NCBI RefSeq assembly: GCF_029960785.1
Contig: NZ_JASBQE010000024.1
Coordinates: 1 to 64,000, forward strand
Direction: 5' to 3'
From: Polyangium sp. 15x6
GTDB lineage: Bacteria; Myxococcota_A; Polyangia; Polyangiales; Polyangiaceae
Length of the DNA stretch: 64,000 bases
Shown: positions 11,902-48,108 of the stretch, piece after piece
How the letters are laid out: the number at the start of each line of letters is the position of its first letter
Numbering within the stretch: position 1 is the stretch's first letter
Program-made: the position numbers and the translations under genes
Notes under the pieces: model-generated
The model's input: only the letters and a program-made list of their open reading frames with translations
Databases searched by the model: none
What the model was told of the DNA's origin: nothing

Positions 11902-14126
11902 CGGCGTCGTTCGGCGGCGCTTGCGGAGGCGAACCGACGACGCAGGAGCTCGGGCCCGCGAGCGCCCTCCGACAACGATTTCCCGATCAAGCAGCTCAGG
12001 TGCTCGACCAGGACGCGCTGATACGCGCCACGGACGCGAGCTTCTCGCTTTCGGACACGTCGGAGGCGAGCGCCTCCTCGCGCGCTCCCGTCACCCTGCC
12101 GCGAGAGGGTCACGAGACGATCCGCTTCCGCGGGTTCGGCGGGGTCGAGGTGCGTGTGCACGAGATCGGCACGCAAGGGAAAGGCGTGCTGGCCGACCAC
12201 GCGGTGGCCTATCCACGCCGAGGAGGCACGTCCTTCTGGACGCGCGTCCCGGAAGGCGTGGAGGAATGGCTCCACCTCGAAGCATCCGCGGTGCACGCTG
12301 GAGAAGCGGTGGCGGCATGGCAGCTCGACGACATGACGGCGCGGCAACGAGGCGACCGCGTGGAGATCGTCGACGCGCTCGGCGTGGTGCGGCTCTCGGT
12401 CACCGCGCCGGTCGCGTATGCGGCCGAGGGCCGGAGCGTGGGCGTGTGGCTCGTCGCGAAGGGGACGAGCTTCGAGCTGCACGTGGACGCCGATGCAGAG
12501 GAGGTGCTGGTCGATCCCCTGTGGGTCCCCGCTGCCATGATGAACACCGGTCGAAGGTGGCACACGGCGACCCGGCTGCCGGATGGCAAGGTGCTCGTCG
12601 CGGGTGGAGAGAGTTCCGGGACCGCAACGGCGAGCGCGGAGATCTACGATCCAGCGACAAACACCTGGACCGCGACGGGCTCCATGGCGAAGGCCCGCAG
12701 TTCGCACACCGCCACGCTGACCGAGTTTGGCTATGTGCTCGTCGCCGGCGGCGAGGCCGCTGGCGCGCCGCTCGCGTACGCCGAGGTTTACGAACCGATG
12801 AGCGGCACCTGGTTCTTTGCGGGCGCGCTCAAGGTTGCCCGGACCCGCGCCACCGCGACCCGGCTCCCCGATGGCCGCGTGCTCGTCGTGGGGGGCACCA
12901 ACTCGCTCATGGGCGGCGCGCAGAAGAGCGCGGAGATCTACGATCCGCTCGTAAACTTTTGGACCGACGCGGCAGCCCCGACCACGGGCCGTTGGAACCA
13001 CACGGCGACACTGCTTCCGAATGGCCAGGTGCTCGTCGCCGGCGGCAGCGTCTCTGGGCCGGACGGCGTCGAGCTCTACGACCCGGCGGCGAATGGCTGG
13101 TCGGCGGCGCCGAGCATGATCCAGCATCGATCGGAGCATACCGCGACATTGCTCGGCAATGGCCAGGTGCTCGTCGCCGGCGGCTTCGGCAGCGAGCCCC
13201 TGGCGAGCGCCGAGCTTTACGATCCGGCCACGAACACCTGGTCGGCCGCGGGCTCGTTGAACCAGGCGCGTTATGCGCAGACGGCGACCTTGCTCGGCAG
13301 CGGCGAGGTGCTCGCCACGGGCGGCTGGGGTGGCGGGAAGGTCCTCGAGACCGCGGAGATCTTCGACCCTGCAAGCAATACGTGGAAGCCGGACGGCGCG
13401 ATGACCGCGGCGCGCGAGCACCACTGCGCGACGCTGCTCGCCAGCGACGAGGTGCTCGTGACGGGCGGCCATGGAGACGCGTCGTTCTCGATGACGAGCA
13501 CCGAGCTCCGTGCCGCACCATTACCGCTTGGCAGCGCATGCGTTGGTGCGGACGAATGCGCGAGCGGCTTTTGCGCCGACGGCGTCTGCTGCGATACGGC
13601 CTGCAGCGCCGGCGCGTGCGACGCATGCACGATGGCCGGCGGCGCTGCGTCGGACGGCGTTTGCGCGTTGCTCACCGGAACGACCTGCGACGATGGCGAT
13701 CTCTGCACGAGCGATGACACCTGCCAGGCGGGCACCTGCGCGCCGGGCAGCCCGGTCGTCTGCCCGGCGCCCGACGCGTGCCACGAGCCGGGCGTTTGTG
13801 AGGTGCTGTCGGGTCAATGTGTGGACACGGCCAAACCCGACGGCACGCCTTGCCCCGGCGGCACGTGCCTCGGCGGGGCTTGCATGTCCGGCGGCTCCTC
13901 GTCGAGCAGCGGCACCGGGGGCAGCGGCGGCAATGGCGGCGGCGGCAATGGCGGCGGCGGCGGGGCCGGCGGCGGTGGCACCGGCGGCAACGGCGCGGAC
14001 GACCCCCTCATCGTGGGCGACGGGTGCGGCTGCGTCGCGGCCGGCACGACCGGACGCGAGGGAGCGGCCGCGTGGGCTGCGCTCGGGCTCATCGGAATGC
14101 TCCTCGCGCGACGCCGCCGGAGCTGA
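11865..14126 (+). CDS. Kelch beta-propeller protein with Cys-rich region and sorting tail
   Basis: Exported protein of about 753 residues. ATG 11865 lies 6 bases after GGAAGGA, and the signal peptide MTKASITPLLLV ends in a lipobox (FGGAC). An N-terminal module (about 60-220) ends in VLVDPLW and resembles the module in the 5383 gene that ends EIDPLF. Seven kelch repeats follow (about 224-545), each like HTATLL..GQVLVAGG and AE.YDPATNTW, giving a seven-bladed propeller. Then come a Cys-rich region (about 559-672), a Gly/Ser linker and a GCGCVAAGTT sorting tail with a hydrophobic segment and terminal Arg cluster. It shares N-module, Cys region and tail with the 5383 protein but carries a different propeller type. 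Probably surface-exposed; function unknown. Confidence 0.87.
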   Translation: MTKASITPLLLVAASFGGACGGEPTTQELGPASALRQRFPDQAAQVLDQDALIRATDASFSLSDTSEASASSRAPVTLPREGHETIRFRGFGGVEVRVHEIGTQGKGVLADHAVAYPRRGGTSFWTRVPEGVEEWLHLEASAVHAGEAVAAWQLDDMTARQRGDRVEIVDALGVVRLSVTAPVAYAAEGRSVGVWLVAKGTSFELHVDADAEEVLVDPLWVPAAMMNTGRRWHTATRLPDGKVLVAGGESSGTATASAEIYDPATNTWTATGSMAKARSSHTATLTEFGYVLVAGGEAAGAPLAYAEVYEPMSGTWFFAGALKVARTRATATRLPDGRVLVVGGTNSLMGGAQKSAEIYDPLVNFWTDAAAPTTGRWNHTATLLPNGQVLVAGGSVSGPDGVELYDPAANGWSAAPSMIQHRSEHTATLLGNGQVLVAGGFGSEPLASAELYDPATNTWSAAGSLNQARYAQTATLLGSGEVLATGGWGGGKVLETAEIFDPASNTWKPDGAMTAAREHHCATLLASDEVLVTGGHGDASFSMTSTELRAAPLPLGSACVGADECASGFCADGVCCDTACSAGACDACTMAGGAASDGVCALLTGTTCDDGDLCTSDDTCQAGTCAPGSPVVCPAPDACHEPGVCEVLSGQCVDTAKPDGTPCPGGTCLGGACMSGGSSSSSGTGGSGGNGGGGNGGGGGAGGGGTGGNGADDPLIVGDGCGCVAAGTTGREGAAAWAALGLIGMLLARRRRS

Positions 14127-14128
14127 CC
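14022..14128 (+). repeat. Sorting-tail coding repeat, copy 2
   Basis: Second copy of the DNA segment encoding the GCGCVAAGTT tail, nearly identical to 7822-7931 and ending just past the stop codon with the same GGAGCTGACC. It is one Arg codon shorter. Confidence 0.85.
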
Positions 14129-14184
14129 TACCCATCACTGACGCATGGCCGGCGCGTCCAGACAGTCCGGTAGAAGGATGCTTC

Positions 14185-15831
14185 ATGATCTACGCACGCT
14201 CTCTCGTTCTCCGCAGGACCCTCCCTTTCCTCATATCAGCGCTCGCCCTCGGGCTCGTCGCCGGTTGCGACGACGACAATGGCAGCAGCAGTAGCAATAG
14301 CAGCAGTAGCTCTTCCTCGGGAAGCGGCGGAGCCGGCGGTCAGGACGCCGGGTTCCGCCTCTCGGGCTCGCTGTCGTACGAGTACGTGCCCTTCGACGCC
14401 GACCTCGAAAAGCTCGATTATGGCAAGATCGAGAAGCGCCCGATCCGCGGGGCCTCGGTCCGCCTGATCGACGCCGACACCGACGCCGAGATCGCGAAGA
14501 CGACCTCCGACGACGAGGGCGCCTACAGCTTCGACTACACGGGGGCCGCAAAGGTGAAGCTTTGGGTCTACGCCCAAACAGAAGCCCCCTCGTTGACCGT
14601 CGAGGACAATACGTCCGGAGACGAGGTCTACGTGATGGAGAGCAACACGGCCGACAGCGCCGAGGACGCGAAGCTCGACGTCCTCGCCGCCACGGGCTGG
14701 GACGGGACCGCGTACACCAAGATCCGCGCCGCCGCACCGTTCGCCGTGCTCGATACGGCCTACACGGCGGCGAGGCGCTTCCTCGACGAGGTCTCCCCGC
14801 CCCCTGCGTTCCCTCCGCTCAAATTCAACTGGAGCATCAACAATCGCCCCGAGGAGGGAGACAAAGCCATGGGCCAGGTCGGCACCTCCCATTTTGACGG
14901 CGAGGAGCTCTACATCCTCGGCAAGGAGGACGTGGACACCGACGAGTTCGATTCGCACATCATCGTCCACGAGTGGGGCCACTGGTTCGACCAGACGCTC
15001 GGCCGTGCGGACACCATCGGAGGCACCCACGGCTCCGGGGACATCGAGGACCCGCGGCTCGCCTGGAGCGAAGGGTTCTGCACCGCCTTGAGCGCGATCA
15101 TCCTCGATCCGGACACCACGTACACCGACAGCTCCGGGCCCGGGCAGGCGAGCGGCTTCGCGAACGATGTCGAAATGAACGACAACAACGCCGAGTCGAG
15201 CCCGGGCTGGTTTTCGGAGACGACGGTCCACGGGGTCGTGTACGATCTCTATGACGGGCCGAACGAGCCCTTCGACCAGGTCAGCGTGGGCATCAAAGGC
15301 ATCTACGAGGCGCACCAGAGCCAGAAGAACAAGGCCTCGTTCACGACGCTCTTCTCGTTCGTGGCCTCGCTCAAGGAGAACGACCCGCAAGCCGCGCCGG
15401 GCATCGACGCGGTCACGTCGTTCTACAACGCAAGCGCCGATTTCGGCATCGACCCCATCGAGGACGAGTGGGGGACGAACGAGACGCATTCAGGCGGCTT
15501 CCCCGGGAGCCTGCCGGTCTACAAGCAGGGCGTCGTCGGCAATAGCTACACCGTGGATCTGACCGGCGACGGCGAATCCAATCGGCTCTCCCAGAACGTC
15601 TACTACCAGATCGAAGGCGACGGGATGCCCATCACCGTCACCTCCACCAGCCCGAGCAACGTCGACCTGGCGGTGTTCAATGCTGGCGTTCTCGTCACGT
15701 CCGACGAAAACCCGAGCGGGGAAGAGAGCCTCACGTTCAATTCGGAGGCAGGGACGATCTACGTGCTCAGCGTGCGTGGGTACAACACGATGCCCGTGTC
15801 GTACGCGGCCGACATCACCATCTCGCACTGA
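14185..15831 (+). CDS. Zinc metalloprotease lipoprotein (HEWGH)
   Basis: Predicted secreted lipid-anchored metalloprotease of 548 residues. GAAGGA lies 6 bases before ATG 14185. The signal peptide ends in LGLVAGC and is followed by an Asp/Asn/Ser-rich linker encoded by a run of AGC/AGT codons. Residues about 60-130 resemble a carboxypeptidase-regulatory (transthyretin-like) domain: RPIRGASVRLIDADTD and DEGAYSFDYTG. The catalytic zinc motif is HEWGH (His262, Glu263, His266), and Glu296 in WSEGFCTAL is a candidate third ligand, a gluzincin-like arrangement. The C-terminal about 100 residues look like a PPC-type beta-sandwich (VDLTGDGESNR, VDLAVFN, YVLSVRGYN). It is followed after 14 bases by a small lipoprotein gene, very likely in one operon. 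The substrate is unknown. Confidence 0.88.
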   Translation: MIYARSLVLRRTLPFLISALALGLVAGCDDDNGSSSSNSSSSSSSGSGGAGGQDAGFRLSGSLSYEYVPFDADLEKLDYGKIEKRPIRGASVRLIDADTDAEIAKTTSDDEGAYSFDYTGAAKVKLWVYAQTEAPSLTVEDNTSGDEVYVMESNTADSAEDAKLDVLAATGWDGTAYTKIRAAAPFAVLDTAYTAARRFLDEVSPPPAFPPLKFNWSINNRPEEGDKAMGQVGTSHFDGEELYILGKEDVDTDEFDSHIIVHEWGHWFDQTLGRADTIGGTHGSGDIEDPRLAWSEGFCTALSAIILDPDTTYTDSSGPGQASGFANDVEMNDNNAESSPGWFSETTVHGVVYDLYDGPNEPFDQVSVGIKGIYEAHQSQKNKASFTTLFSFVASLKENDPQAAPGIDAVTSFYNASADFGIDPIEDEWGTNETHSGGFPGSLPVYKQGVVGNSYTVDLTGDGESNRLSQNVYYQIEGDGMPITVTSTSPSNVDLAVFNAGVLVTSDENPSGEESLTFNSEAGTIYVLSVRGYNTMPVSYAADITISH

Positions 15832-15845
15832 AAGAGGAATCGATA

Positions 15846-16361
15846 ATGAAATACATCGGCATCGTGGGGATGGTCGTCCTTCTCGCGGCAGCGGCGTGCG
15901 GGACCGAGGGAGCGCGGCCTCCGGCTCCTCCCACACCAAGCACGGTCGCGACCGAGAAGGCAGGCCCATCCGAGCCCACAGCGAAGCCCTCCGCTCCCGT
16001 GAACGTGACCGCGACGCTAAAGCCAGGCGCGGCCGATCTGGATGTCGTCTTCGGCGCAGACGGCTCGAACATCACCATCGAGGTCTGGGGGGTGGACGGG
16101 CTGAAGCTCGAGGGAGGAGCGAGCCCGGTCTCGAAGCCGTCCGTGAGAAACGGGCAATCCGTCAAGGTGTCCGTTCTCTACGACGCGGGGGCGACCGAGA
16201 GTAACCTCGCGATCCGCGTCAGCGGCACCTTCAACGGCCGAGAGCAGGCCAAGGTGCAGTCGTTCACGGTCAATGCAGGTAGCCAGCCCAAAGGCGCGCC
16301 GGCCGGGGAGAGCAAGGTCGATAAAGACGGTCGGCCGGTCAAGGTGATGAAGTCGCAATAA
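15846..16361 (+). CDS. Small lipoprotein, unknown function
   Basis: Exported 171-residue protein. AGAGGA lies shortly before ATG 15846, and the signal peptide ends in AAAAC. A Pro/Thr-rich stretch (about 23-55) is followed by a domain of beta character: VNVTATLKPGAADLDVVF, ITIEVWGVDGL, SVKVSVLYDAG and LAIRVSGTFNGREQAKVQSF. This suggests an immunoglobulin-like fold, but no named family was recognised. It starts 14 bases after the metalloprotease gene, and a truncated relative of its 3' end lies at 11216, so this family is locally duplicated. It is the last gene of the exported-protein cluster. Confidence 0.8.
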   Translation: MKYIGIVGMVVLLAAAACGTEGARPPAPPTPSTVATEKAGPSEPTAKPSAPVNVTATLKPGAADLDVVFGADGSNITIEVWGVDGLKLEGGASPVSKPSVRNGQSVKVSVLYDAGATESNLAIRVSGTFNGREQAKVQSFTVNAGSQPKGAPAGESKVDKDGRPVKVMKSQ

Positions 16362-16635
16362 TGCCCTCCCGCCGGGCTACCGCCGTTTCATGGCGCGGGG
16401 CAGCTTGCCAACGGCATGATACGCAGCCCGCGCAGCGGCCCGTGCTTTCCTCATCCGCGCATACGCCGTCTTCTCCGGGGGGCGTTCACGGCAGGAGCCC
16501 CGCTTCTCGACACTTCCCCTCCAGGACCTGAGCATTGGTCCCATCACGACGCACGTGATCCCCCCAACGGCTCCAGCACTTTCCGCACTTTTCACCAGAC
16601 GATCCGGCCTCTCAACACATCTGAGCATGGGTCTC

Positions 16636-16754
16636 ATCTGGGAGCCGCTGCGCTGGGGCGTTGCCCCAGGCCCCAGCAGGGGCTGTCCGCCCCTGCACCC
16701 GGACCAGCCAGGGGCTGGACCCAGGACGATGAACTGCGCGGTGCGCAGTTCATC
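16636..16754 (+). repeat. Four-hairpin interspersed element, copy 1
   Basis: Four consecutive perfect stems: CTGGGGC-GTT-GCCCCAG (16653-16669), GCAGGGG-N7-CCCCTGC (16676-16696), CCAGCC-AGG-GGCTGG (16704-16718) and a 12-bp stem with loop GGT (16728-16754). Copy 2 (16797-16917) is the same design in inverse orientation, and copy 3 is at 47029-47133. It lies between the convergent genes ending at 16361 and 16958. It could work as a terminator or be a REP-like mobile repeat. Confidence 0.85.
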
Positions 16755-16796
16755 GCACAGGCCCGGTCGAGACCGGCGACGTCTCGACGGCCTGCT

Positions 16797-16917
16797 GGGA
16801 GAACTGCGCACCGCGCAGTTCTCCCACAAAAGGTCCAGCGCTTGCGCTGGTCCGGGTCCAGGGGCGGATAGCCCCGGTGGGGCCTGGGGCAACGCCCCAG
16901 CGCAGCGGCTCCCAGAT
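16797..16917 (-). repeat. Four-hairpin interspersed element, copy 2 (inverted)
   Basis: Reverse-strand copy of the element at 16636. Its variable hairpin is a 13-bp perfect stem (16797-16825, arm GGGAGAACTGCGC), then CCAGCGC-AA-GCGCTGG, the CAGGGGC/GCCCC stem (imperfect) and CTGGGGC-GTT-GCCCCAG. Copies 1 and 2 face each other across about 40 bases that contain a further inverted pair GTCGAGAC/GTCTCGAC, so the whole 16636-16917 block is one large inverted repeat. Confidence 0.85.
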
Positions 16918-16957
16918 AAATCTCATTGTGTGCCGCTCGCGAGGCGAGGAGCAGGGC

Positions 16958-17575
16958 TCACCCATCGCAGACGGCGGGCCCCGTCTGGCAGACGACGAAG
17001 ACCGTCCTCAGCACCGACGCCTCCTGCGTCGCCGCGCCGGCAAAGCGGACCATGCGCGGCGAGTCGCTCGGGCAAGACGCGATGAGCGCGGGGTTTCCAC
17101 GCGGCGGGTCGACATAACACCAGCCGTTCACCGGCTGGTCGTCCACGACGACGTCGTCCTGGAGGTCGACATTCAAGCAGGCCTCGACGTGCGCGGGATC
17201 GCCCGCGATCGGCAGCACCTCGCAGACGCAGTCGGAGGCTGCGCCCGCCACCGCGCCGGCGTGCTCCGGCGCGACGGGTGCAAAACCCTGCGCGGCGTCG
17301 CAAGTGCACGCGCCGCCCCCAGCGCGCACATCGAGCACGAAGCAGGAGGCGTCGCCCAAGGCATCGAGGTACGGCACCTCGTCGAGACACAGCCCGCCGA
17401 GGCTGGACTCGCCCTCGGCGGGCATGGCGGCGCCCAGCTCGATCGAGCGCGTGAACGACGGGGCCTGGCACGAGGAGTCGACTGGCACCTCGAGGCCGGC
17501 CTTCGCGCCGCAGCCGGCAGCAAACGAAGCAAAAAAGAGGGTGAAGAGAGTGTAAGTGGATTTCATTGGCCGCAT
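16958..17575 (-). CDS. Cys-rich lipoprotein, unknown function
   Basis: Exported protein of about 205 residues. The start is placed at ATG 17575 (MRPMKSTYTL) because a signal peptide ending in the lipobox FAAGC follows; ATG 17566 is equally possible and no strong ribosome site is visible. The mature protein has many cysteines in pairs (CTCD, CVCEV, CYVD) and no recognised catalytic motif or domain. Proteins of this kind are common in myxobacterial envelopes, but a role cannot be given. It converges with the lipoprotein gene ending at 16361 across the hairpin elements. Confidence 0.7.
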   Translation of the reverse strand: MRPMKSTYTLFTLFFASFAAGCGAKAGLEVPVDSSCQAPSFTRSIELGAAMPAEGESSLGGLCLDEVPYLDALGDASCFVLDVRAGGGACTCDAAQGFAPVAPEHAGAVAGAASDCVCEVLPIAGDPAHVEACLNVDLQDDVVVDDQPVNGWCYVDPPRGNPALIASCPSDSPRMVRFAGAATQEASVLRTVFVVCQTGPAVCDG

Positions 17576-17750
17576 CGGCGAGCAAGCGTGGTGCCCCGCG
17601 ACGAATCCACGGAATTTCCGGGCAACGTCGCGGTATGCGCCAACCATGGTAGGCTATCTAGCAACCGAGTACAACAATGGCGCTCTGCGGCAGGCGGGAG
17701 CGGAGGCGGAAGCGGTGTGATGAAGTGCTCGGCAATCGGCGCGGATTTCG

Positions 17751-44500: not shown

Positions 44501-47020
44501 ATGCAAACAGCCGACGAAGGCCGCGACACGCGGCTCGAGGCCCCCCGCAGTGATCATGCCGAGCCGGGGAGGGCGTGGCGCACCTACGGCCTCTCCATGG
44601 CCGTCATGCTCGTGATCGTCCTCGTCCGGTTCTCCCTGGAGCCGTGGCTGGACGGCAATGCGCCCCTCCTCGCTTTGCTCTTGCCCGTGGCCATCGCCGC
44701 CGCATACGGCGGGCTCTGGCCGGGCATCATCGCCACGAGCCTTGCCGCGTTCGTCGGGCTCCTGCTTTTCCTGAGTCCGCTCGGCAGCCTGACCATCGAT
44801 ACGCTCGCGGATCAGGCGCGCCTCGCCCTGTTTCTGCTCACCGGGCTCGGCATCAGCGTGCTCACCGAGCGAGCGCGGCGCGCGCGAGAGGCCGCCCTTT
44901 CGCGGGATCTCGAAGCGCGTATCCGTGCCGAAGCCAATCGCAATGCGGAGCTCGAACGGCGGGTCGCCGAGCGCGCGGCCGCGCTGGAGGCGAGCGAGCG
45001 CGAGGTCCGTTCATCCCTTCGGGCCGCGCAAAGGGCCGAGGAGGCGCTGCGGGAGAGCGAGGCCGTCGCGCGTCGGCAGCTCGACGAGCTCGAAGCGACC
45101 TATGCCGCCGCGCCGATCGGGCTCTGCGTGCTCGATCGGGACCTGCGCTGGGTGCGGATCAACGAGCGGCTCGCCGAGATCAACGGCATTTCCCCCGCCG
45201 CGCACATCGGCCGCTCGGTGCGCGAGCTCCTGCCGAACATCGCGGACCAGGCCGAGCCGATGCTGCGCAAGATCCTGGACACGGGCGAGCCGCAAAAGGA
45301 CGTGGAGATCGTCGGCGAGACGCCCGCCCAGCCCGGCAAGAAGCGGATCTGGATGGAGAGCTTTTTCCCGCTGCGGGACACGAGCGGGACGATCGTGGGC
45401 GTCAACGTGGTCTGCGAGGAGGTCACCGAGCGAAGGGAGGCCGCGGCGGCCCTCGCCGAGAGCGCGGATCGGCTGCAACTGGCGCTCGACGGGGCGAAGG
45501 CCGGGTGGTGGGAGTACAACGCCGAGAGCGATCTCTACACGTGGTCCGACGCCCAGTGCGAGCTCTACGGGCACGACATGAGGAACCGCCCGCTCCGGAT
45601 CGCCGACTGGCGGAGCCGGGTGCATCCGGCCGACCTGGCGGAGTGCGACGCCGACTTGGCTCGGCGCACGGCGCAGCGGATACCGGACTTCACGTACGAG
45701 TTCCGCGTCCTGCACCCGGAGAAAGGCGAGCGCTGGATTCACTCGCTCGGGCGCATCACCTACGACGAGGAAGGAAAGACGGTGCGGATCGTGGGGATCA
45801 GCCGCGACGTGACCGAGGAGAAGAAGGCCGCGATCGAGCGCCTGTTCCTGCTGGAGAGCGAGCGCGCGGCGCGGGCCGAGGCCGAGCGGGCGAGCCGGAT
45901 GAAGGACGAGTTCCTCGCGACGCTGTCGCACGAGCTGCGCACGCCGCTGAACGCGATCCTCGGCTGGACGCAGCTCGTGCAAAGGCCCGGGATCCGGCCG
46001 GAGCAGCTCGCCAAGGGGCTCGCGGTGATCGAGCGGAACACGCACCTGCAGGCGCAGCTCATCAACGATCTGCTCGACGTGAGCCGGATCGTGGCAGGAA
46101 AGATCCACGTGGAGCTCGAGCCGACGCAGCTCACGCCCGTGGTGGAGGCCGCCATCGAGGCCTGTCGCGCCTCGGCGGAGGCCAAGGGCGTGACGGTGCG
46201 GGGGCCGCGAGATCCAGCGCGCATGGCGGTGCGCGGCGATCCGGCGCGTCTGCAGCAGATCGTGTGGAACCTGGTCTCGAACGCGATCAAGTTCACGCCG
46301 AAGGGCGGGCACGTCGAGGTGTCGATGGCGCAGGAGGGCGAGCGCGCCGTGATCTCCGTGCAAGACACGGGTCAGGGCATCGCGCCGGAGTTCCTTCCGT
46401 TTCTGTTCGAACGATTCCGCCAGGCCGACTCGTCGATGGCGCGGCGGCACGGCGGTCTCGGCCTGGGGCTTTCCATCGTGAAGCGCCTGGTCGAGCTGCA
46501 CGGAGGCGTGGTGCGCGCGGAGAGCGAGGGTCCCGACAAGGGCGCGACGTTCAAGGTGGAGCTGCCCTGCGTGGCCGGCGAGCGCAGTCGCGTGCCCTCG
46601 CAGCTGCCCCGGAGCGCGCCCACGAACGATCCACGAAACCTGCAGGGCGTGGCCGTGCTCGTGGTGGACGACGAGGCCGATTCACGGGAGCTCGTGAAGC
46701 GGGTGCTGGAGGAGCACGAAGCAGTCGTGTGCACGGCAGCCTCGGCCGCAGAGGCGCTGGACGTGTCGGCGTCGCGGTCGATCGATCTCATCGTGAGCGA
46801 CATCGGCATGCCAGGCATGGACGGATACGCGCTCCTGCGGGAGATCCGGGCCCGCCGGAACGGGCACGGAAAAGACGTCGTCGCCGTCGCAGTGACCGCA
46901 TTCGCACGGCCAGAGGACCGAGAACGCGCGCTCGCCGCAGGCTACCGGGCGCACCTCGCAAAGCCGTTCGAGCCCTCCGAGCTGGTGTCGCTGCTCGCAG
47001 GGCTGCGCGAGGCGAGTTAG
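44501..47020 (+). CDS. Hybrid sensor histidine kinase with DUF4118-like membrane domain
   Basis: Membrane sensor of about 839 residues. ATG 44501 follows GAGGG by 5 bases. Residues about 30-125 contain several hydrophobic helices of DUF4118 type (LLALLLPVAIAAAYGG, IATSLAAFVGLLLFLSPLG), as in KdpD-like sensors. A coiled coil and two PAS/PAC domains follow (about 205-330 and 335-450). HisKA is MKDEFLATLSHELRTPLNAI with phospho-acceptor His477. HATPase has NLVSNAIKFTPKGG (N box) and later GQGIAPEF, GGLGLGLSIV (G boxes). A receiver domain (about 716-835) has VLVVDDEAD and the acceptor Asp767 in VSDIGMPGMDG. No response regulator partner is adjacent. Signal unknown. Confidence 0.93.
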   Translation: MQTADEGRDTRLEAPRSDHAEPGRAWRTYGLSMAVMLVIVLVRFSLEPWLDGNAPLLALLLPVAIAAAYGGLWPGIIATSLAAFVGLLLFLSPLGSLTIDTLADQARLALFLLTGLGISVLTERARRAREAALSRDLEARIRAEANRNAELERRVAERAAALEASEREVRSSLRAAQRAEEALRESEAVARRQLDELEATYAAAPIGLCVLDRDLRWVRINERLAEINGISPAAHIGRSVRELLPNIADQAEPMLRKILDTGEPQKDVEIVGETPAQPGKKRIWMESFFPLRDTSGTIVGVNVVCEEVTERREAAAALAESADRLQLALDGAKAGWWEYNAESDLYTWSDAQCELYGHDMRNRPLRIADWRSRVHPADLAECDADLARRTAQRIPDFTYEFRVLHPEKGERWIHSLGRITYDEEGKTVRIVGISRDVTEEKKAAIERLFLLESERAARAEAERASRMKDEFLATLSHELRTPLNAILGWTQLVQRPGIRPEQLAKGLAVIERNTHLQAQLINDLLDVSRIVAGKIHVELEPTQLTPVVEAAIEACRASAEAKGVTVRGPRDPARMAVRGDPARLQQIVWNLVSNAIKFTPKGGHVEVSMAQEGERAVISVQDTGQGIAPEFLPFLFERFRQADSSMARRHGGLGLGLSIVKRLVELHGGVVRAESEGPDKGATFKVELPCVAGERSRVPSQLPRSAPTNDPRNLQGVAVLVVDDEADSRELVKRVLEEHEAVVCTAASAAEALDVSASRSIDLIVSDIGMPGMDGYALLREIRARRNGHGKDVVAVAVTAFARPEDRERALAAGYRAHLAKPFEPSELVSLLAGLREAS

Positions 47021-47028
47021 GCAGGCGT

Positions 47029-47133
47029 TGCGCCGGGGTTTCACCCCGGGCCCGACCAGGGGTTGTCCACCCCTGGACCCGGACCAGCGCAAGCGCTGGA
47101 CCGGTGGTGCATCGACCGCGATGCGGTCGATGC
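47029..47133 (+). repeat. Four-hairpin interspersed element, copy 3
   Basis: Same design as 16636: CCGGGGT-TTC-ACCCCGG (47033-47049), CCAGGGG-N7-CCCCTGG (47056-47076), CCAGCGC-AA-GCGCTGG (47084-47099) and a perfect 11-bp stem with loop GAT (47109-47133, arm GCATCGACCGC). Two pairs of stem 1 differ from copies 1 and 2 in both arms, and the last stem has a different sequence but the same position. It fills the gap between the convergent histidine kinase and permease genes, so it may terminate both. Confidence 0.85.
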
Positions 47134-47148
47134 AAAGGGGAATTCGAT

Positions 47149-48108
47149 TCAGCGTCGTGCCTCGCCCGCGCGCCGCGCGCGATCGAGCGCGACGGCGGTC
47201 ACGACGATGCCGCCCGTGACGATGTCCTGCACCCAGTTCTCGATGCCGAGGTAGGTCGATCCCGTGCGGATCACGGTCATCAGGAGGGCGCCGAAGAGCG
47301 CGCCCGCGACCGAACCTTCGCCGCCCGCAAGGGAGCCGCCGCCGATCACCACGGCCGCGATGACCTCGAGCTCGAGGCCGATCGAGTCCGTCGGATCGCC
47401 GACCGTCAACGTCGAAAACTCCATCACGCCCGCGAGCCCGGCGAAGAGGCCGGCGAGCCCGTAGACGAGCCATTTCACGCGCTCGACGCGCACGCCGCAG
47501 AGCCGCGCCGTGGCCTCGTTCGACCCGATGGCCACGATGTGCCGCCCACCTCTCGTGTACACGAGCATCGCGGCCACGAGCGCGGAGGTGGCCAGCATGA
47601 TCCACACGCCCGGTGGAAACAGGGCCCATCCATAACCAGGCGGGAGCGGCGCGACGAGGGCCTCGATACCCGAGGCCGGCGCATCGATCTTCTGCTCCTC
47701 CGCGAGCCCCTTCGCGAGGCCACGCAGCGCCCGCATCGTGCCGAGCGTCACGATGAACGGCGTGATCCGGAGCGTCGTCACGAGCGCGCCATTCAGGAGC
47801 CCCGCGACGAGCCCGCTCGCCATGGCCGCCGCAACGGCGAGGATCGCGGGCGCGCCCTCGCGTAAGCAGAGCGCGCAGACGACCGTGGAGAGCGCGACGT
47901 TCGACCCGACGGAGAGATCGATCCCGCCGAGCAGGATCACGAGCGTCATGCCGCTCGCGGCGATCCCCACGACCACGGTCTGGCCGGCCATCGTCGTGAG
48001 GTTCTCCGCCCGCGTGAAGGAGCCGCCCGCGACGATCGCGAAGATCACGTAGACGACGACGACGGCCACGAGCGGGCCGAGGAACGGGTACTTACGCAAG
48101 TACTTCAT
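47149..48108 (-). CDS. Sugar ABC transporter permease (RbsC-like)
   Basis: Inner-membrane permease of 319 residues of the ribose/xylose/galactoside importer group (BPD_transp_2). It has about eight to ten hydrophobic helices, for example FLGPLVAVVVVYVIFAIVAG, and the family motif GGIDLSVGSNVALSTVV followed by a later GGGSLAGGEGSVAGALFGAL region. ATG 48108 overlaps the ATPase stop (ATGA), so the three transporter genes are translationally coupled in the order binding protein, ATPase, permease. It ends against the hairpin element at 47029. The substrate is presumed to be a pentose or related sugar from the divergent FGGY kinase. Confidence 0.93.
   Translation of the reverse strand: MKYLRKYPFLGPLVAVVVVYVIFAIVAGGSFTRAENLTTMAGQTVVVGIAASGMTLVILLGGIDLSVGSNVALSTVVCALCLREGAPAILAVAAAMASGLVAGLLNGALVTTLRITPFIVTLGTMRALRGLAKGLAEEQKIDAPASGIEALVAPLPPGYGWALFPPGVWIMLATSALVAAMLVYTRGGRHIVAIGSNEATARLCGVRVERVKWLVYGLAGLFAGLAGVMEFSTLTVGDPTDSIGLELEVIAAVVIGGGSLAGGEGSVAGALFGALLMTVIRTGSTYLGIENWVQDIVTGGIVVTAVALDRARRAGEARR

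Follow-up and report, generated by a model that had tools for sequence, protein, structure and literature searches.

Where two genes converge in the genome of Polyangium sp. 15x6, two multi-hairpin elements face each other as one large inverted repeat, which raises the questions of what kind of element this is, how it spreads and whether it serves its host. The pair lies in the stretch of 64,000 nucleotides analysed here (the window). A sequence-only reading of this stretch had described two elements of about 120 bp, each built of four stems and facing each other with an extra inner inverted pair, together with a related element at 47029, and had taken them for a REPIN-like family of structured repeats specific to this lineage.

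Fold and make-up of the arms

The paired elements are present as that reading had described them. Based on the DNA fold, the left arm (class a) occupies 16643..16755 on the plus strand, with hairpins H1 at 16653-16669, H2 at 16676-16696, H3 at 16704-16718 and H4 at 16727-16755, and was matched by a covariance model (CM) at 16645-16721 with 88.4 bits. The right arm (class b, GGGAG form) lies on the minus strand at 16796..16911, with H1 at 16900-16884, H2 at 16877-16858, H3 at 16850-16835 and H4 at 16826-16796 (CM match 16832-16908, 92.5 bits). Between them lies a linker read directly from the sequence (16756..16795), which at 40 nt is shorter than the usual ~88 nt (58-121 nt in 46 other pairs). 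The outer inverted repeat of the pair joins 16627-16681 to 16872-16926 (55 nt, 89% complementary), and the inner inverted pair joins 16731-16763 to 16789-16821. The related element proved to be a third copy, a single arm of class S1 folding at 47023..47134 on the plus strand (H1 47033-47049, H2 47056-47076, H3 47084-47099, H4 47108-47134; CM match 47025-47102, 104.6 bits).

The three window arms measure 112-116 nt with four hairpins each. H1-H4 appear in the minimum-energy single-stranded DNA fold of all three (z -6.1 to -7.2; none of 200 shuffles was as stable), the centroid structure of the right arm giving firm support for H4 only, and the 47 kb arm shows the four-hairpin fold on both strands. 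RNA folds of slightly longer arm pieces gave z -3.7 to -4.5. Furthermore, a 30-nt core motif (up to 3 mismatches) was found three times in the window against 0.00 expected, with an exact copy at 47056. An Rfam search of 16300-17200 returned no family at gathering score, the lowest E value (0.088) belonging to a match far below its gathering score.

Each arm also holds a pseudoknot, not seen by the earlier reading, in which the H2 loop pairs with bases before H3 (TCC with GGA, or TTC with GAA). It joins TCC 16686..16688 to GGA 16701-16703 in the left arm (plus strand), TCC 16868-16866 to GGA 16853-16851 in the right arm (minus strand) and TCC 47066-47068 to GGA 47081-47083 in the single arm (plus strand), and its pairs covary in the two alignments examined, A3 and A4. 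A3 holds 27 arms (26 distinct), from which the covariance model R1 was built; R1 covers H1-H3 and leaves the pseudoknot out. A4 holds the best 150 of 183 matches (130 distinct arms) and favours structure, since it is fitted to the model and consists of the best-scoring arms. In A3, 98.0% of cells pair and 8 of the 24 pairs are changed on both sides; the corresponding values in A4 are 98.6% and 11 of 24, and sliding the partners by 1-3 columns lowers pairing to 24-59%. These figures count sequences, not events, and the stem alleles are few and widely shared; a shuffle measure of further pair types was not above chance in A3 or A4. The pseudoknot is unbroken in all 130 distinct A4 arms, with its middle pair changed on both sides in 22 and a U-G pair elsewhere in 2. 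H2 is weaker at its foot, where one position is unpaired in 31 of the 130 arms. Together, these data agree with the proposal of a structured family with covarying stems.

The wobble pairs bear on the strand for which pairing is kept. H1-H3 and the pseudoknot hold 33 G-U against 1 A-C mismatch, with 31 of the 33 in a single column of H2, and H4 holds 3 G-U against 8 A-C. With so few G-U wobbles, pairing may be maintained on both DNA strands rather than for one RNA; this scarcity, though based on few independent events, fits a both-strand constraint (a DNA structure or a two-way element) better than a constraint on one RNA strand. The G-U bias in the one H2 column points to RNA, counter to this argument.

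Across the family, the unit is an arm of ~115 nt with three GC-rich hairpins and the H2-loop pseudoknot, followed by a longer, class-specific H4, and elements are either single arms or two facing arms joined by a conserved linker, such pairs mostly measuring ~280-360 bp overall. Most arms carry an H4 of class a (CGATGAACTGCGC), b (GGAAGAACTGCGC), S1 (TGCATCGACCGC), S2 (CGACAGCGCGC) or c (GCATCGACTGCGC), the window's three being of class a, a variant of class b, and S1. The H4 stem has a median of 14 pairs (fewer than 9 in 5 of 214 arms), and a few classes dominate among 42 distinct 5' sides. The four-hairpin architecture is therefore kept, as had been proposed, but a last hairpin unique to each place is not found, since a few classes recur across the family. 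A BLAST search with the 47 kb arm led to a second subfamily. H3 alleles occur together with several H1 and H4 classes, so that the hairpins look shuffled as units.

Several further sequence features were observed around the arms. A second hairpin (GGGGCTACGCTCGGC-aag-CCGAGC..) is nested beside H2 in some arms, as if another repeat had inserted (L171 ~14080-14205, L271 and the junction orthologous to 86.8 kb of contig C198), and at two loci (L026, L027) an array of short repeats, tandem or dispersed, stands in place of the sequence behind the left arm. The motif CTGAGCATGGGTCTCATC precedes some class a arms (GTCTCAT in 15 of 84); in the window it is found at 16528-16545 and 16621-16638, once as a variant to which no arm belongs, and it may be a separate repeat or a target remnant.

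Copy number and distribution in the genus

Further copies are abundant in the genome of origin. BLAST with the left arm gave at least 110 matches there (40 of 417 candidates scored), and R1 gave at least 150, the best 150 all scoring at least 97.6 bits. The copies were counted in a sample of 846 kb, comprising the window, contigs C198 and C209 and the first 80 kb of C275. This sample contains 48 arms, all of at least 54.8 bits, while the next score is 28.8 and each of the 24 weaker matches overlaps one of these arms; 45 of the arms lie outside the window, in 782 kb. Arm density is uneven, with 39 arms in 354 kb of C198, 6 in 348 kb of C209 and none in the 80 kb of C275, and ~770 arms per genome, the number expected if the sample density held, is accordingly a rough extrapolation. 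A Polyangium genome probably carries hundreds of copies. The 48 arms group into 19 face-to-face pairs, with H4 inward in all, and 10 single arms, so that 19 of 29 elements are paired. No isolated decayed copy was seen in the 846 kb at the search sensitivity used. Several contigs of this genome end inside or beside an arm (L003, L007, L019, L024, L029; C271, C256, C173, C201, C144), suggesting that the family probably breaks the assembly and that copies may be under-counted.

The distribution was searched in 59 genomes, comprising that of strain 15x6 (G000), five of the genus (G001-G005) and 53 of other relatives, with strict filters that lose weak matches. In each of the six Polyangium genomes, 77-80 of the 80 candidates scored were matches. 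Among the 53 other relatives, G028 alone matched, and weakly (11 matches, best E 0.005); four of these were read and belong to a repeat that differs in H2 and lacks the pseudoknot. When 140 genomes from across the phylum were searched, under filters that likewise lose weak matches, only G176 matched besides the genome of origin, again with a look-alike. A DNA pattern for H2-H3 was found in at least 57 stretches of genome contigs, all from Polyangium among the matches listed (Polyangium sp. 6x1, sp. y55x31 and P. fumosum DSM 14668), a set from which strain 15x6 itself may be absent. A strict hairpin-ACCC-hairpin pattern occurred among 188 genomes in that of strain 15x6 only, and in one viral contig; the arm pattern had no match in viral contigs, and a search of plasmids gave short, weak matches only.

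The repeats of G028 (L097, L103, L109, L115) and G176 (L289, L290) were rejected as members, as they share the hairpin-ACCC-hairpin layout only and have no pseudoknot; they possibly hint at a wider class of G/C-rich repeats. With matches in all six Polyangium genomes and look-alikes elsewhere, the searches support the idea of a lineage-specific family, which so far appears restricted to the genus Polyangium at the level of sequence matches.

Placement at gene ends and turnover of the junctions

Both window loci lie between convergent genes, as had been noted. The gene left of the pair (15846..16361, plus strand, 171 aa), an open reading frame for which the gene call has a shorter start, stops 281 nt before the arm, and the convergent gene to the right (16958..17647, minus strand, 229 aa), supported by both reading frame and gene call, stops 46 nt after it. 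The genes called around the single arm are closer, with stops 2 nt before it (44501..47020, plus strand) and 14 nt after it (47149..48108, minus strand). Genes were called with our own simple codon-usage caller rather than taken from standard annotation.

To map copies relative to gene ends, a pattern search was carried out in 1.686 Mb of the six genomes, window included, in which syntenic stretches count some junctions in more than one species. It gave 113 arms and 70 intergenic elements, 43 in convergent, 22 in tandem and 5 in divergent junctions; 2000 random placements gave a mean of 8.9 and a maximum of 18 convergent elements. Elements occupy 41 of 189 convergent, 20 of 769 tandem and 5 of 190 divergent junctions (convergent versus the rest, 41/189 vs 25/959: odds ratio 10.3, Fisher p 4e-18). 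Moreover, 52 of the 70 elements have the 3' end of a gene no more than 20 nt away; the 2000 random placements gave 6.2 such elements on average and 18 at most. At loci mostly selected by similarity, the median distance from stop to arm is 17 nt for paired and 14 nt for unpaired arms.

Such placement raises the main rival to a mobile repeat, namely that the element serves the host at 3' ends in both directions. In RNA, the arm would terminate the transcript of the gene ending before H1 or protect it from exonucleases, with copies kept and homogenised by need and movement secondary. The arms follow the upstream gene in sense in 182 of 215 cases (from 219 arms, mostly selected by similarity and thus a biased sample), and of the 22 elements in tandem junctions, too, 16 are found no more than 20 nt from the stop of the upstream gene. 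The near-perfect stems, the covarying pseudoknot and the lack of decayed copies in the sample likewise speak for this reading. However, a U-tract as in intrinsic terminators is not the rule, TTTT occurring within 12 nt of H4 in only 6 of 218 arms, and H4 shows no G-U excess. In terminator scans, the right arm gave a single weak site behind its H3 (1-kb scan) and the 47 kb locus gave none. Also against a need of the host, 148 of the 189 convergent junctions do without an element, 40 of 96 convergent gaps in the sample from strain 15x6 are shorter than 10 nt, and orthologous junctions can be empty. We therefore consider a primarily host-serving element unlikely, though a serious contender.

Indeed, presence varies at orthologous sites, as expected of the non-autonomous mobile repeat that the sequence-only reading had listed among its options. 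At the junction near 120.5 kb of C198, G000, G004 and G002 carry a pair, G005 and G003 have overlapping stop codons and no element, and G001 has a different repeat in its place. Another junction has a single arm in G004, overlapping stops (CTAG) in G005, G003 and G001, and other inserts in G000 and G002. In the empty counterparts that were read, the two stop codons overlap or lie no more than ~60 nt apart, and the left proteins of the orthologous junctions read end at the same residues with and without the element. Over all orthologous comparisons, a partner element was present in 56 and none in 36, the sites coming from three genomes and being counted more than once. At one junction the pair stands in opposite orientation in G000 and G002.

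The form of the element changes as well. At the 47020 junction, whose flanking genes are 83-92% identical between Polyangium species, G000 carries the S1 arm. In the same place G004 has a pair in which another hairpin is nested at H2, G002 has a composite, and G003 has a single arm whose H4 is of class b; G001 has an unrelated repeat of the CCCTCTCC type, and the two genes are 5.4 kb apart in G005. In G003 and G002 the left arm at this junction still has the H1 loop and H2 seen in G000, with a different H4 in each. At the 16.6 kb junction, the left gene is present in all five congeners and the right gene was not found beside it. Arms of the same class at orthologous junctions have a median identity of 0.905 (24 pairs, in one of which both arms are unclassified), compared with 0.897 for same-class arms at unrelated places (643 pairs). 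Among 52 orthologous arm pairs, 10 join two named classes and 18 join a named class to an unclassified H4, some of the latter being mere point variants. A few orthologous arms, 0.95-0.99 identical, look simply inherited. That orthologous junctions can be empty, differ in form or hold unrelated inserts shows that the repeats move or are rewritten; the class changes, with identity as low as at unrelated sites, further indicate that many junctions were recolonised or rewritten rather than inherited unchanged. Replacement by recombination instead of transposition is a possible route. Inspection by eye for target-site duplications showed that CTA fits two clean empty sites and that others show none; CTAG as a target was rejected, as it fits some empty sites and not all.

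A third reading holds that convergent junctions are unstable DNA, supercoiled and structure-forming, at which hairpins are copied by template switching or ectopic gene conversion with no dedicated mobile system, triplex-forming repeats arising at the same sites. It would account for the finding that other species have unrelated repeats, of hairpin or triplex type, at these junctions, for stem alleles common to several arm classes and for the left arm at 47020, where H1 loop and H2 persist while H4 changes, and instability has been published for intrastrand triplex motifs (PMC4666352). Insertion of whole units is nevertheless a better fit to the conserved linker and to the presence or absence of pairs as units, and we regard ectopic copying as improbable. 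We thus rank the non-autonomous mobile repeat as most likely, a host-serving 3'-end element as its main rival and ectopic copying third, noting that the readings overlap.

Other repeats were seen at these junctions. A TM-ECO/REP-like motif, CCCTCTCCC..GGGAGAGGG..GGGGTGAGGG, occupies the same convergent junctions in other species, at the orthologues of ~93.5 kb of C198 in G000 (in G005 and G003) and of window position 47020 (in G001, L270). Another inverted-repeat element, with the ends GAGGGTGTTTCACAGGC and GCCTGTGGAACACCCTC, stands at a gene end at L038 (both ends) and L056 (one end). GAGGGTGTTTCACAGGC was dismissed as a shared element end, as of its two occurrences in the contiguous stretches one adjoins an arm and the other lies within a gene.

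Relation to known repeats and the search for a mobiliser

REPs adjoin the 3' ends of genes and in convergent spaces lie mostly within 20 bp of them (PMC3733652), and REPINs are inverted doublets (PMC3116915). Like the REP and REPIN doublets of these accounts, the Polyangium elements are inverted, structured pairs with a spacer, present in hundreds of copies, intergenic and beside 3' ends, with a preference for convergent and unidirectional spaces. Different from the single palindrome of 20-40 bp that makes up the unit in the same accounts, or of 20-65 bp by the wider definition of a REP, the Polyangium unit has ~115 nt, four hairpins and a pseudoknot, and the GTAG tag of REPs is not conserved, standing at a hairpin foot in 53 of 218 arms.

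The family of REP-associated transposases (RAYTs), PF01797, which the sequence-only reading had suggested looking for, was not matched in G002, in G004 or in G005, whose assembly consists of 2 contigs. There was one partial match in G000, one full match (152-aa frame) in G003, and one full match (152-aa frame) plus one partial match with a stop in G001; no arm lies in the ~3 kb around any of these four. Despite the inverted doublets, high copy number and placement beside 3' ends shared with published REPs, the lack of a PF01797 match in half of the genomes, of arms around the matches in the others, the sparse GTAG tag and the pseudoknotted unit largely refute a genuine REP/REPIN system mobilised by RAYTs, which we hold to be highly improbable. 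By these tests the Polyangium repeats are REP-like in place and arrangement but outside the REP/REPIN class, and the label REPIN-like does not apply in the strict sense.

A search for an autonomous partner was made in five stretches of 0.3-4.5 kb between facing arms (from 226 arms in the genomes sampled), and no recurrent gene was found in them. One such stretch in G005, between facing arms 3.4 kb apart, holds a gene for a XerD-type recombinase (NCBIfam TIGR02225, above cut-off; L170 10306-11196) together with two unrelated genes. We rejected the recombinase as mobiliser, as it occurs in one of the five stretches and is probably a housekeeping xerD present by coincidence.

Other repeat classes are each similar in part. 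Extragenic hairpins at gene ends, seemingly without a dedicated transposase, link the family to the CGTC-tagged REPs (PMC3733652), from which it differs in size and fold and in having CGTC just before H1 in only 17 of 218 arms. It resembles the G/C-rich intrastrand triplex motifs of the TM-ECO type (PMC4666352) as G/C-rich intergenic repeats at unstable junctions, and TM-ECO-like motifs indeed occupy some of the same convergent junctions in other Polyangium species. The arms, by contrast, are without the 9-nt C-G-G pattern, and the C-run after H1, a candidate third strand, is 3-5 nt by eye. The TM-ECO pattern CCCTCNCCC N3-6 GGGNGAGGG N3 GGGNGAGGG, with up to 3 substitutions and looser loops, had 5 matches in 1.686 Mb compared with 113 arms, and the arms were rejected as this motif; four of the 5 matches are in convergent junctions. 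ERIC/RU sequences and other prokaryotic MITEs are non-autonomous elements of ~100-350 bp with inverted-repeat ends that vary between related genomes. The Polyangium elements are similar to ERIC/RU and other MITEs (PMC2759123, PMC10969869) in size, inverted-repeat ends (in the window pair, the 55 nt outer repeat), probable non-autonomy and variability between genomes, and differ in that no parent transposon was found in the genomes sampled, that no consistent target-site duplication was found by eye and that each arm is a four-hairpin fold. A literature search, made largely without the genus name, gave no description of the family among the matches listed.

Taken together, we consider it probable that these repeats are a genus-specific family of non-autonomous mobile repeats. 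A trans-acting enzyme would recognise the folded single-stranded or extruded DNA of the arm, and insertion would be directed to, or best survived at, convergent gene ends, where it would interrupt neither operon nor promoter; spaces between convergent genes have been proposed to be supercoiled and favourable for insertion (PMC1525189). Once inserted, the repeat would form the 3' untranslated region of one of the genes or of both, and may hinder transcription or RNA decay arriving from either side. In E. coli, REPs within 15 nt of the stop codon can stall ribosomes (PMC12306157). More speculatively, and rather unlikely as it stands, the family could be a new kind of mobile element, in which a pseudoknotted multi-hairpin fold is the signal of a non-RAYT mobiliser and the meeting point of convergent transcription units is the target; such an element would give many genes new 3' ends, in every species independently of the others.

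The spread of short palindromic repeats and their possible use to the host are long-standing questions, and what is known comes largely from REPs linked to RAYTs. Polyangium offers a large family in which no RAYT-type enzyme is detectable and whose fold is more complex and includes a covarying pseudoknot. As six related genomes show the same junctions empty, filled or otherwise filled, insertion preference, turnover and the effect on gene ends become directly testable.
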